Source: Betaproteobacteria bacterium UBA2293 (GTDB lineage: Bacteria > Pseudomonadota > Gammaproteobacteria > Burkholderiales > Rhodocyclaceae). From it: a stretch of 17,108 nt of DNA. The notes below the pieces were generated by a model. That model made no database searches, was not told where the DNA came from, and was given only the letters and a program-made list of their open reading frames with translations. Location: contig DDWF01000310.1 of NCBI GenBank assembly GCA_002345845.1, positions 1 through 17,108 on the forward strand, written 5' to 3'. Position numbers and translations under genes: made by a program. Below, piece by piece: positions 4,139 to 6,187 of this stretch (positions are counted from its first letter, which is position 1; the number at the start of each line of letters is the position of its first letter).

Positions 4139-4168
4139 ATTCTAGATGAACCACCAGCGCACTGTCAA
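4139..4168 (-). promoter_or_regulatory. Promoter of rplM-rpsI
   Basis: On the minus strand there is a perfect TTGACA (4163-4168), an 18-bp spacer and TAGAAT (4139-4144), with predicted start near 4132. The strength and position suit a ribosomal-protein operon. The small-RNA terminator at 4201-4229 lies just upstream and would insulate this promoter. Confidence 0.8.
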
Positions 4169-4200
4169 TGACTTTCTCCGCTCCCAACCCTTAGGTGGAC

Positions 4201-4229
4201 AAAAAAAACGCGGCTCGCTGAGCCGCGTT
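4201..4229 (-). terminator. Intrinsic terminator of a leftward transcript in the rplM upstream gap
   Basis: A perfect 10-bp stem AACGCGGCTC/GAGCCGCGTT (4207-4216 with 4220-4229) has a 3-nt loop. On the minus strand it runs directly into eight T residues (4208-4201). It is oriented for leftward transcription, although no protein gene lies upstream of it for about 370 bp. It therefore needs a non-coding transcript, and the promoter at 4317-4345 supplies one. Confidence 0.88.
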
Positions 4230-4310
4230 AAATCCACACCAAAGGAGGAGGGTGGAGGAGACAAATCTGAACCGGAAACTTATCGCTATTAAGTCACCGC
4301 GGTTCGTACG
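4201..4310 (-). ncRNA. Predicted small RNA with two CUCCUCC anti-Shine-Dalgarno motifs
   Basis: Unannotated small RNA predicted from sequence alone, about 110 nt, running from a start near 4310 to the U-run at 4201. Parts in order: (1) a 5' hairpin with stem GAACCG (4305-4300) to CGGUUC (4274-4269) and an inner stem GACUUA (4295-4290) to UAAGUU (4282-4277) around a 7-nt loop; (2) CUCCUCC at 4260-4254; (3) a small hairpin CACC (4254-4251) to GGUG (4240-4237) whose 10-nt loop (4250-4241) presents a second CUCCUCC; (4) the terminator hairpin. The C-rich motifs are complementary to Shine-Dalgarno sequences. Anti-SD loops of this kind are known in cuckoo RNAs of Rhodobacter and sibling sRNAs of Neisseria. 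Homology to either is not shown. Likely role, by inference: repression of several mRNAs at the ribosome binding site. Confidence 0.65.
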
Positions 4311-4316
4311 CTTCAC

Positions 4317-4345
4317 ATTATGCCGAAAGACGCCCCCCTTCGCAA
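4317..4345 (-). promoter_or_regulatory. Promoter of the predicted small RNA
   Basis: On the minus strand TTGCGA (4340-4345), an optimal 17-bp spacer and CATAAT (4317-4322, five of six consensus bases) predict a start near 4309-4311. The -35 is imperfect, which fits the presence of an upstream operator-like palindrome (4353-4367) where an activator could sit. Confidence 0.65.
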
Positions 4346-4352
4346 GAAATAT

Positions 4353-4367
4353 TTGTGCGCCGCACAA
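4353..4367. promoter_or_regulatory. Operator-like palindrome TTGTGC-N3-GCACAA upstream of the sRNA promoter
   Basis: Perfect 6-bp arms TTGTGC and GCACAA flank GCC. The centre is about 50 bp upstream of the predicted sRNA start and 8 bp beyond the -35. The core TGC-N3-GCA resembles sites described for the polyhydroxybutyrate regulator PhaR; that identity is a guess. A near-copy is at 4511-4525. Confidence 0.5.
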
Positions 4368-4406: not shown

Positions 4407-4601
4407 CTAACCATATGATATTGATGTTGTTTAAGTTAAGTTATTTAACACATTTTGCAATGATCAACACGAGGAATCTACAACCGAAACGCCTCGCCAC
4501 CGAACGCTAATAGTGCACTGCACAAACTTGCAAGAACCAGCCCAACAACATCCTTTCCGCCGGCAATCCGCTAGAATCTGGCAACAATTAAGGAGTTGGC
4601 A
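4407..4601. other. Rest of the AT-rich intergenic region upstream of the osmC-family gene
   Basis: Nothing here looks like a gene. The left part (about 4407-4465) is markedly AT-rich compared with the rest of the window. The only short open frame (4460-4510, 16 codons) lacks a ribosome binding site. The right part holds an operator-like site (4511-4525) and a lone -10-like TAGAAT at 4572-4577, about 25 bp before the osmC-family start, without a convincing -35. Confidence 0.5.
4511..4525. promoter_or_regulatory. Second operator-like site of TTGTGC-N3-GCACAA type
   Basis: TAGTGC-ACT-GCACAA has one mismatch from the symmetric form of the site at 4353-4367. The inner TGCACTGCA matches my recollection of the core of PhaR sites in Ralstonia. 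It lies about 50 bp upstream of the -10-like TAGAAT of the osmC-family gene. Two related sites bracketing a divergent region suggest shared control. The regulator is inferred. Confidence 0.4.
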
Positions 4602-5030
4602 ATGGAATGTATCGTCAGATGGACCGGCAACGACTCAGGGATGAGCTTTATTGCCGAAACCGGCAGTGGCCACGCCGTGGTCATGGATGGAGCCCCAGAA
4701 GCAGGCGGACGCAATCTGGGTCCGCGCCCGATGGAAATGGTCCTCGCCGGGACGGGCGGATGCAGCGCTTTTGACGTGGTGATGATCCTGAAAAAGGGAC
4801 GCCAGGCAGTCACCGCATGCGACGTTTCCCTGCAGGCCGAGCGCGCCGATAGCGACCCCAAGGTATTCACCAAGATTCACCTGCACTATCGTGTCAAAGG
4901 CAAGAGCCTCAAGTCAGAGGCGGTTGCCCGCGCCATCGAGCTGTCGAAGGAAAAATACTGCTCAGCTTCGATAATGATCGGCAAGACCGCCGAGATCACC
5001 TACGACTTCGAAATTGTGGAAGAAACCTGA
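4602..5030 (+). CDS. OsmC/Ohr-family protein (YhfA-like)
   Basis: OsmC-fold protein, a family that includes thiol-dependent peroxidases for organic hydroperoxides. I place the start at ATG 4602 (142 aa) because AAGGAG at 4590-4595 sits 6 nt upstream; a TTG two codons earlier has no ribosome binding site. The two conserved cysteines are present: C54 in LAGTGGCSAFDV and C120 in EKYCSASIM. Peroxidase activity is therefore possible, though the YhfA branch is poorly characterised. Residues 1-60 (WTGNDSGMSFIAET to MEMVLAG) match the N-terminal strands and long helix of the fold. It converges on coq7 with 6 bp between stop codons. The large regulatory region upstream suggests controlled expression. 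Confidence 0.88.
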   Translation: MECIVRWTGNDSGMSFIAETGSGHAVVMDGAPEAGGRNLGPRPMEMVLAGTGGCSAFDVVMILKKGRQAVTACDVSLQAERADSDPKVFTKIHLHYRVKGKSLKSEAVARAIELSKEKYCSASIMIGKTAEITYDFEIVEET

Positions 5031-5036
5031 TCGCCG

Positions 5037-5660
5037 TTAGATACGTGAGGCAAGGCCTGTCATCAGCCTAGCCGAGGCTTTCATGGCCAGCCTCACAATT
5101 GCCGGCAACTCGGCCGCACCATGCGCCAACGCCATTTCGGCATGGCGCATTTCATCAACGCGCATTTGGTCGACGATAGCTCTGGAGCGAGCATCTTCGG
5201 CCGGTAAGGCATCCAGATGACCATCCAGATGTGCCTCCACCTGGCGTTCAGTTTCAGCGAGAAACCCCAGGTTCCACTTGTCACCGCAGGCGCCGGCCAA
5301 TAGCCCGAGAGCCAACGCTCCCGAATACCACAAGGGATTGAGCAGGCTCTTCCGCCCGCCCAACTCGGCAATTCTTTGCTCCGTCCACGCCAGATGCTCG
5401 GTTTCCTCTTCGGCTGCGACACGCAACGCACGCCGGACGGTGTCATCGCGGGAAGTTAGTGCCTGTCCCTGATAAAGGGCCTGGGCACAGATCTCACCGC
5501 AGTGATTGACACGCATTAGGCCGATCACCAGGCGCCGTTGCTCGACATCCAGGTTCGTATCCGGCAGGTCCGCCCCTGGCACCGGCCGCACGCTGCGCGC
5601 TGGCGCGCAAATGGCACGTAATGCACGATCCAGTTCGACAATAGCCTGATCCATCGACAT
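5037..5660 (-). CDS. coq7: Demethoxyubiquinone hydroxylase (2-polyprenyl-3-methyl-6-methoxy-1,4-benzoquinone monooxygenase)
   Basis: Membrane-associated di-iron enzyme that adds the penultimate ring hydroxyl in ubiquinone synthesis. The ferritin-like ligand motifs are all visible (numbering from ATG 5660, 207 aa): NHCGE ending near 56, EEETEHL near 84-90, [12 protein letters not shown] near 138-149, and DEMRHAEMA near 169-177. A hydrophobic segment (about 114-124) fits monotopic membrane binding. I prefer ATG 5660 because GAGG lies about 9 nt before it. An upstream GTG at 5675 would overlap the CNP1-like stop by four bases and add five residues, and ATG 5654 is also possible. It is the last gene of the rppH - CNP1-like - coq7 unit. 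This is the Coq7-type hydroxylase rather than the flavin-dependent UbiF. Confidence 0.93.
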
Positions 5661-5671
5661 GCCAACCGACC

Positions 5672-6187
5672 TCACGGATTTGCCTGCAGGGTGGCGGGCC
5701 TTTTGAAGGCATTTTGCAACTGACCAACATTGCCGACAATGACGCCGCCCGGGCAGAAATAATCGAGAAACAGCACCGCACGATGGCGATTGACCGCTGC
5801 TTCGCGCACTGCTGACCAGCTATCGCTGCGCGCCTTGGACCAGCTTCCGTCGGCGCGCCCGGATGCGTAAATGCGCCATTCCCGGGTTTCGCAGCGCATG
5901 CCTTCAAAACTGACATTGCGCGCCCCACCGTGCGTCAGCACGACGAGAACATAGCGCACGACCCCATCAGCACCGATGCTCAGCGTCGACGTATCGACAA
6001 AGAAGCGGTTTTCCGCAACCGCGCTGACATAAAACTCGCGCAATGCGCCTTCCACCGGCGCTGCCGGGAATGCCACTTCAGCCTCGCGCCACGCCTGACG
6101 GGTGTAGTCCTCCTCGACATCGGCAATAACTCCGTTACTCAAGAGGAGCGCCAAGGCCACCACCAGACTTCGCCGAAAATCGAACAC
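5672..6187 (-). CDS. CNP1-like family exported protein
   Basis: A 171-residue protein of the CNP1-like family (named after a cryptic neisserial protein), of unknown function. The N-terminus has a basic start and hydrophobic core (residues 1-22, likely cleaved after VIA), so it should be exported to the periplasm. The mature part has the family's conserved blocks: [49 protein letters not shown] and the C-terminal [10 protein letters not shown]. Two cysteines, in MRCETRE and DYFCPGG, could form a disulfide. The start is GTG at 6187: its GAGGGAGA Shine-Dalgarno runs into the rppH stop codon 4 bp upstream, so translation is coupled. Position between rppH and coq7 gives no clear clue to function. 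Confidence 0.85.

Follow-up and report, generated by a model that had tools for sequence, protein, structure and literature searches.

Introduction

The small RNAs gathered in Rfam as RF02278, the Betaproteobacteria toxic small RNA, form a described family. Kimelman 2012 is reportedly the source for their toxicity in E. coli, and Sass 2019 is said to be a study on NcS27. Burkholderia cenocepacia and Herbaspirillum seropedicae are each reported to have four copies, and the copy described from Bordetella pertussis is S17 (PMC4603805, PMC5688073, PMC7011215, PMC10987360, PMC11722255). The studied relatives are ncS03, ncS05, ncS27 and ncS62 of Burkholderia, of which ncS05 lies between BCAL0436 and BCAL0437, together with S17 of Bordetella, and for these RNAs pairing with ribosome-binding sites has been either shown or predicted (PMC5688073, PMC11722255). 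With S17 both a dependence on Hfq and pairing at the ribosome-binding site are shown, its overproduction slows the growth of E. coli modestly, and according to its authors hundreds of species have kept its core, one of their examples being Aromatoleum (Rhodocyclales) (PMC11722255). Overexpression of ncS27 likewise slows growth (PMC5688073).

What is it that turns these RNAs on? The regulator of their accumulation in Burkholderia cenocepacia is stated to be unknown in PMC5688073, and the authors of the S17 work postulate an unnamed repressor of its promoter (PMC11722255). A second body of work concerns PhaR, which in Cupriavidus represses its targets when PHB is absent and shifts to the granules once the polymer forms (PMC12542648). 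PhbF, from Herbaspirillum, has a footprinted site of the form TG[N]TGC[N]3GCAA and lowers reporter activity from the phaP1 promoter and from its own in E. coli, and for the Rhodobacter PhaR the bound sequence is CTGC[N]3GCAG (PMC3206438). In Sinorhizobium, PhaR sites at phasin genes and at mmgR are marked as efficient, and the latter, an sRNA gene, is repressed by PhaR (PMC12542648).

The present work concerns the window, the whole stretch of 17,108 nucleotides (17 kb) from Betaproteobacteria bacterium UBA2293 that was analysed. The sRNA that it encodes is itself known, and the new part is a PhaR-type site at the promoters of the family. Such a site at most copies provides one directly testable answer to what turns the RF02278 sRNAs on.

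The sRNA gene and its family

RF02278 is the single Rfam family that scores above its cut-off in the window by cmscan, with bases 4263-4200 of the minus strand spanning model positions 1-64 at 64.4 bits (E 3.1e-11) against a curated cut-off of 50 bits. Because this match is full-length and above the cut-off, the window sRNA is, as judged from its sequence, a member of the described family. The architecture of RF02278 is present, with two hairpins, the second of which is an intrinsic terminator, and CU-rich unpaired stretches. Within the promoter a 17-base spacer separates TTGCGA from CATAAT, and the terminator has its stem at 4229-4207 and eight T at 4208-4201 (minus strand). The predicted 110-nt transcript, 4310-4201, folds at -38.4 kcal/mol (z -3.85) and the 63-nt core alone, 4263-4201, has a folding z of -5.28, with 0 of 200 shuffles as good in either case. 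The features of the locus are collected in Table 1.

Table 1. Features of the sRNA gene and its surroundings in the window.
Feature	Position	Strand	Evidence
Palindrome TTGTGCGGCGCACAA, predicted PhaR/PhbF operator	4353..4367	minus	sequence; 16-row alignment; same 15 letters within one of the PhaR sites tabulated in PMC12542648
sRNA promoter, -35 element TTGCGA	4340..4345	minus	sequence; aligned rows: TTG 16/16, TTGC 12/16
sRNA promoter, -10 element CATAAT	4317..4322	minus	sequence; CANAAT in 14/16 aligned rows
5' leader of predicted primary transcript	4264..4310	minus	fold; partial conservation
sRNA core, full-length match to RF02278 Betaproteobacteria_toxic_sRNA	4200..4263	minus	64.4 bits, E 3.1e-11
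First CUCCUCC anti-Shine-Dalgarno motif, 5' tail, like S17 Site 1	4254..4260	minus	sequence, fold, Rfam; site name from PMC11722255
Second CUCCUCC motif, hairpin 1 loop, like S17 Site 2	4244..4250	minus	sequence, fold, Rfam
Hairpin 1	4233..4256	minus	fold; Rfam structure
Intrinsic terminator, 10-bp stem and U run	4201..4229	minus	sequence, fold
Separate rplM promoter, TTGACA-18-TAGAAT, behind the sRNA terminator	4139..4168	minus	aligned rows: TTGACA 16/16, TANAAT 13/16
rplM, ribosomal protein L13	3662..4090	minus	Pfam PF00572
OsmC-like gene, divergent, on the other flank of the sRNA	4596..5030	plus	Pfam PF02566
coq7, in the conserved neighbourhood	5037..5675	minus	Pfam PF03232

The promoter, the two CUCCUCC motifs, the hairpins and the terminator can all be read from the sequence where the original prediction had placed them, and the terminator, which it had assigned to the sRNA gene, gives no sign of serving another transcript. 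That prediction also put both CUCCUCC motifs into loops. This is right for the second, which has all of its bases except the first in the loop of hairpin 1, but the first is a single-stranded 5' tail whose last three bases fall within the stem; the fold and the Rfam structure agree on both. Conservation in related genomes, on which the case for a real gene had been made to depend, is seen in scans of rplM loci and in an alignment of the window with 15 close relatives (16 rows), where the 64-nt core is near-invariant and the 5' leader, 4310-4264, drifts and is partly conserved. The two-part hairpin described in this leader is in place in the window, with only partial conservation among the 16 rows. 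Processing probably removes the leader, as it does in S17 and ncS27.

Distribution and genomic position

Matches to RF02278 above the cut-off occur in 112 of 150 genomes from the family of Dechloromonas agitata and in 114 of 300 from its order, with 3 in the 369 genomes of the wider class (103 at E <= 0.001) and none in 14 control genomes. In the assemblies as they stand, 184 of the 300 and 38 of the 150 have no match at E <= 1e-8. The claim that the RNA is unannotated and undocumented for this lineage is overturned by the family count, by the Rfam entry and by Aromatoleum aromaticum (Rhodocyclales), which already appears in the figure 3 legend of PMC11722255. The accompanying interpretation fares better, as a trans-acting anti-Shine-Dalgarno repressor of metabolic genes is what has been demonstrated or predicted for the studied relatives (PMC5688073, PMC11722255), and the same role may by analogy be assigned to the window sRNA.

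Eighty rplM loci were collected by protein similarity, of which 74 were scanned with Rfam (L043, L046, L058, L063, L066 and L077 being left out); 33 carry the sRNA, including all of the 14 nearest, and 41 have no match above the cut-off. When the best sRNA copy of each genome was taken together with its fetched flanks, 24 of 30 loci from the family and 15 of 31 from the order had rplM following the sRNA on the same strand, osmC or coq7 lay beside the sRNA in a further 5 and 9, and 1 and 7 had none of the three genes. The window copy sits where the best-scoring copy of the group usually lies, between osmC/coq7 and rplM. Since S17 too adjoins coq7 (PMC11722255), the window copy is probably its positional counterpart.

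Could the element then be a cis-acting leader or attenuator of the rplM-rpsI operon, in which the anti-Shine-Dalgarno loops and the terminator regulate ribosomal protein synthesis? The same-strand position upstream of rplM in many genomes would suit such a role. However, the 41 rplM loci without an above-cut-off match speak against it, as do 14 of 30 loci from a search of 17 genomes of relatives in which the fetched flanks contain none of rplM, osmC and coq7, and the sRNA is conserved as an independent gene across the 112 family genomes. Moreover, behind the sRNA's own terminator rplM has a separate predicted promoter, whose TTGACA is kept in every aligned row. The terminator and this second conserved promoter indicate that the sRNA is not the leader of rplM, an explanation that appears hardly credible and is rejected.

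The 17 genomes of relatives have between 1 and 10 RF02278 hits each at E <= 0.001, and 15 of them have one above the cut-off. In G719 the matches on contig C1 form tandem clusters (3305531-3305801 and 3308499-3309062) with copies about 200-300 bases apart, and G016 has ten matches at E <= 0.001, from which it appears that the family multiplies locally. Two side observations concern the rplM loci. In a Zoogloeaceae MAG (L028, 173-219) the stretch upstream of rplM has a match to Acido-Lenti-1 RNA at 37.4 bits against a cut-off of 37, and the loci L012 (95% identity) and L015 (94%) come from records titled as Chloroflexi and Malonomonas MAGs, which are probably misassigned or contaminated bins.

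A conserved palindrome upstream of the promoter

Just upstream of the sRNA promoter, and beyond the region covered by the original prediction, lies a palindrome of the form TTGTGC-N3-GCACAA, which is exact in 12 of the 16 aligned rows and retains its TGC-N3-GCA core in 15. Does it belong to the neighbourhood or to the sRNA? At loci without rplM, osmC or coq7, at least 10 of the 12 palindrome letters are present upstream of 5 of 22 sRNA copies, compared with 5 of 471 random stretches. Within 450 nt upstream of rplM, 28 of 33 sRNA-bearing stretches have the stricter form TGCRNYGCA, against 5 of the 40 that lack the sRNA (73 stretches, L015 being omitted as its upstream stretch is cut), so that the site tracks the sRNA and not the neighbourhood; two of the five sRNA-free stretches with the site contain CTCCTCC.

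A wider count took 221 sRNA copies, 192 once near-identical ones were removed, and tallied all possible inverted cores of three bases within 160 nt upstream. Of the 192 copies, 132 have TGC-N3-GCA and 60 lack it in these 160 nt, while the other 63 cores with the same gap average 8.4 occurrences, with a maximum of 45, and the next best inverted core at any gap from 1 to 7 reaches 70. R-N-Y predominates in the spacer, with T and A as flanks. A second TGC-N3-GCA site, as found in many phasin promoters, was not seen in the window's promoter in the 16-row alignment.

The palindrome is also phased with the promoter. Among the 80 copies where the site reads TTGC, 67 have these letters doubling as the -35 element with the -10 at a spacing of 16-18, other spacings giving 0-3. 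In 44 of the 132 copies the -35 lies downstream of the site, at the window's own distance in 30 of them, and throughout the window's clade the site is upstream of the -35 and does not overlap it. In two fetched loci (L151, L157) the published S17 promoter pair, TTGCAT-17-TACTAT, has its -35 inside a PhaR-type site. The doubling of TTGC means that part of the conservation of the site is that of the promoter, and it would suit an sRNA that acts as a growth brake without any control by PhaR, the upstream site being a relic or an extended promoter element. Yet a promoter can do without the GCACAA half, and in the window's clade conservation covers the entire palindrome although it lies clear of the -35 and -10 hexamers, so that this explanation is regarded as quite improbable.

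Likeness to PhaR operators

The published PhaR motifs are matched in the core, in the R-N-Y at the centre and in the flanking T and A. The table of Sinorhizobium PhaR sites includes ACATTGTGCGGCGCACAAAGT, which contains the exact 15 letters of the window, in an entry marked NE, taken as not examined (PMC12542648). Among the related genomes the core is present in the 350 nt upstream of 28 of 30 phasin matches, where about 31% would be expected, with the exact palindrome at 8 of the 30, and the upstream regions of the phaR genes themselves have the core in 9 of 16 cases. Twelve of the 17 genomes of relatives were searched for the exact palindrome, which gave 21 occurrences, 4 of which lie by coordinates at the sRNA and 9 at phasins, and 0 for the reversed control. 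The remaining 8 are neither at the sRNA nor at a detected phasin, and some adjoin genes without an obvious role in PHB metabolism. PhaR is present in 16 of the 17 genomes; the single relative that lacks it has no phasin and a weak sRNA match only (46.4 bits).

In two genomes (L249 and L254) an exact TTGTGC-N3-GCACAA (at 1501) is located 41 and 166 bases upstream of an open reading frame that by eye is a putative acyl-CoA synthetase, a candidate PhaR target, and in L252 and L251 exact palindromes adjoin reading frames that by eye resemble an acyl-CoA dehydrogenase and an amidase.

No description of PhaR control of RF02278 sRNAs was found in the literature searched. A term check of the available text of PMC5688073, PMC4603805 and PMC11722255 gave no mention of PhaR, the letters "phar" in PMC4603805 occurring only in "Pharmaceutical", and PHB too is absent from the available text on S17 in PMC11722255. 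A common upstream motif has been reported for three of the Burkholderia copies (PMC5688073, Fig. S3), and this may be a PhaR-type site.

Co-distribution of the site and PhaR

If PhaR acts on the palindrome, should the site not follow the protein across genomes? The relation was counted in 102 sRNA copies from those 87 of the 116 sRNA-bearing genomes for which DNA was fetched, taken from the top of the lists. By genome, the TGC-N3-GCA core is present in 56 of 65 PhaR-bearing and 2 of 22 PhaR-lacking members of the order sample. By copy, the figures are 61 of 79 with PhaR against 2 of 23 without (Fisher 3e-9) for the core, and 58 of 79 against 0 of 23 for the strict site TGCRNYGCA. "Absence" of PhaR may partly be a matter of assembly incompleteness, as the genomes come without completeness figures.

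On an Ffh tree of 59 of these genomes, made by a quick method and with stars on 28 of its 57 inner branches, there are five changes in PhaR and nine in the core, and the core is missing in 6 of 38 PhaR-bearing genomes and present in 2 of 21 PhaR-lacking ones. Five independent pairs can be drawn, of which for the strict site about 2.9 go with PhaR, 0 against it and 2.1 make no difference (median p 0.25), with 2.8, 0.5 and 1.7 respectively for the loose core (p 0.5). The co-distribution fits the link and is no proof of it, being clustered on the tree with too few independent lineages for significance.

The presence of the sRNA itself is a separate matter. Both sRNA and PhaR are found in 85 genomes, the sRNA only in 31, PhaR only in 118 and neither in 66, which is not significant (p 0.10). 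A requirement of PhaR for the sRNA to exist is thus unsupported, and in some lineages the sRNA exists without PhaR, unless PhaR was missed in incomplete assemblies. In PhaR-lacking genomes (copies L304, L309, L317, L318 and others) the RNA core is almost unchanged and the upstream region is different, and so another regulator may drive the sRNA there.

A related possibility is that the RF02278 sRNA of the window is an ordinary one and that its palindrome serves a different dimeric regulator, one of carbon or nitrogen metabolism. PhaR binding to the palindrome is a prediction from sequence, the core is kept in two PhaR-lacking genomes, the eight exact palindromes away from the sRNA and detected phasins include some at genes with no obvious PHB role, and mmgR is controlled by NtrC as well (PMC8401924). 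On the other side, the agreement with the published PhaR motifs extends over core, spacer and flanks, phasin genes of related genomes have the same kind of 15-mers, and the strict site is found in none of the 23 copies from PhaR-lacking genomes. Another regulator in the place of PhaR is accordingly considered unlikely.

A proposed link between carbon storage and uptake

The anatomy of the gene, its family membership, the conserved site, the promoter phase and the likeness to phasin operators form the basis of a joint reading, to which a probability of roughly 0.7 is given. It is that an RF02278 sRNA is repressed by PhaR/PhbF until PHB accumulates, and then blocks the ribosome-binding sites of uptake and catabolism mRNAs. 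From the sigma-70 promoter, transcription would run to the gene's own terminator and yield an RNA of about 110 nt, and removal of the leader, expected from S17 and ncS27, would leave a double-hairpin RNA of 64 nt. The two CUCCUCC stretches would pair with numerous mRNAs, chiefly those of uptake and catabolic genes, at their ribosome-binding sites, thereby blocking translation, the targets being those suggested by the relatives. PhaR/PhbF, as the PHB-sensing repressor, is predicted to bind the palindrome on the side of the promoter and to hold the gene down, and the placement of the site over or beside the -35 fits this sign of control. Accumulation of PHB would draw PhaR onto the granules, the sRNA and the phasins would be produced at the same time, and both the import and the breakdown of nutrients would be throttled. 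Some points weigh against this reading, namely the 60 of 192 copies without the core, the position of the site upstream of the -35 in the window's clade, the apparent occurrence of the sRNA without PhaR in some lineages and the small number of independent pairs on the tree.

On this reading the sRNA should rise with carbon excess. In Burkholderia, levels in glucose medium relative to an exponential LB culture are 8.0-fold higher for ncS03, 6.9-fold for ncS05 and 4.3-fold for ncS27; these three are also higher in biofilm and starvation, with ncS27 peaking in biofilm at 9.7 (PMC5688073, Table 2). On a wider scale, it seems reasonably probable that the RF02278 sRNAs of the Betaproteobacteria belong to the PhaR regulon, that PhaR is also the repressor postulated for the S17 promoter, and that the circuit is the counterpart, with another RNA family, of the alphaproteobacterial PhaR-MmgR circuit.

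Phasin mRNAs as favoured targets, in the manner of MmgR, are unsupported, with a mean duplex energy of -15.0 for 30 phasin starts, positions guessed by script, and of -16.6 for 88 control starts (p 0.11), so that the energies are no better than those of the controls.

If the proposed control by PhaR is true, a widespread family of growth-slowing sRNAs is tied to PHB as the storage polymer, a link of relevance to strains used for PHB production. The cell would then read its carbon store via PhaR and respond with a surge of anti-Shine-Dalgarno RNA, closing down the uptake and breakdown of nutrients.

Comparison with known systems

Cuckoo RNAs of Rhodobacter and sibling sRNAs of Neisseria use anti-Shine-Dalgarno loops on many ribosome-binding sites. 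By description they are analogues of the window sRNA, and the Rfam scan of the window named RF02278 alone. MmgR (alpha-r8) of Sinorhizobium meliloti, a 77-nt Hfq-dependent RNA, has a promoter with a PhaR palindrome and is repressed by AniA/PhaR (PMC12542648, PMC8401924). Unlike the window sRNA it belongs to an alphaproteobacterial family, and it lowers phasin levels, of which there is no sign here.

S17 of Bordetella pertussis, described in a preprint (PMC11722255), shares with the window the coq7 neighbour and the CU-rich 5' end and loop. A long form of S17 is cut to a 67-nt core and its promoter is of the sigma-A type. It differs from the window copy in that its other neighbour is a glycosyltransferase gene and in that it is tied to the Bvg mode. 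Finally, ncS03, ncS05, ncS27 and ncS62 of Burkholderia cenocepacia have, like the window sRNA, the RF02278 model, the double hairpin, the CU-rich unpaired motifs and the terminator, and ncS27 (92 nt) is likewise longer and processed (PMC5688073). In contrast to these copies, the window sRNA belongs to another genus, with a predicted leader of 47 nt and a putative operator just upstream of the -35.
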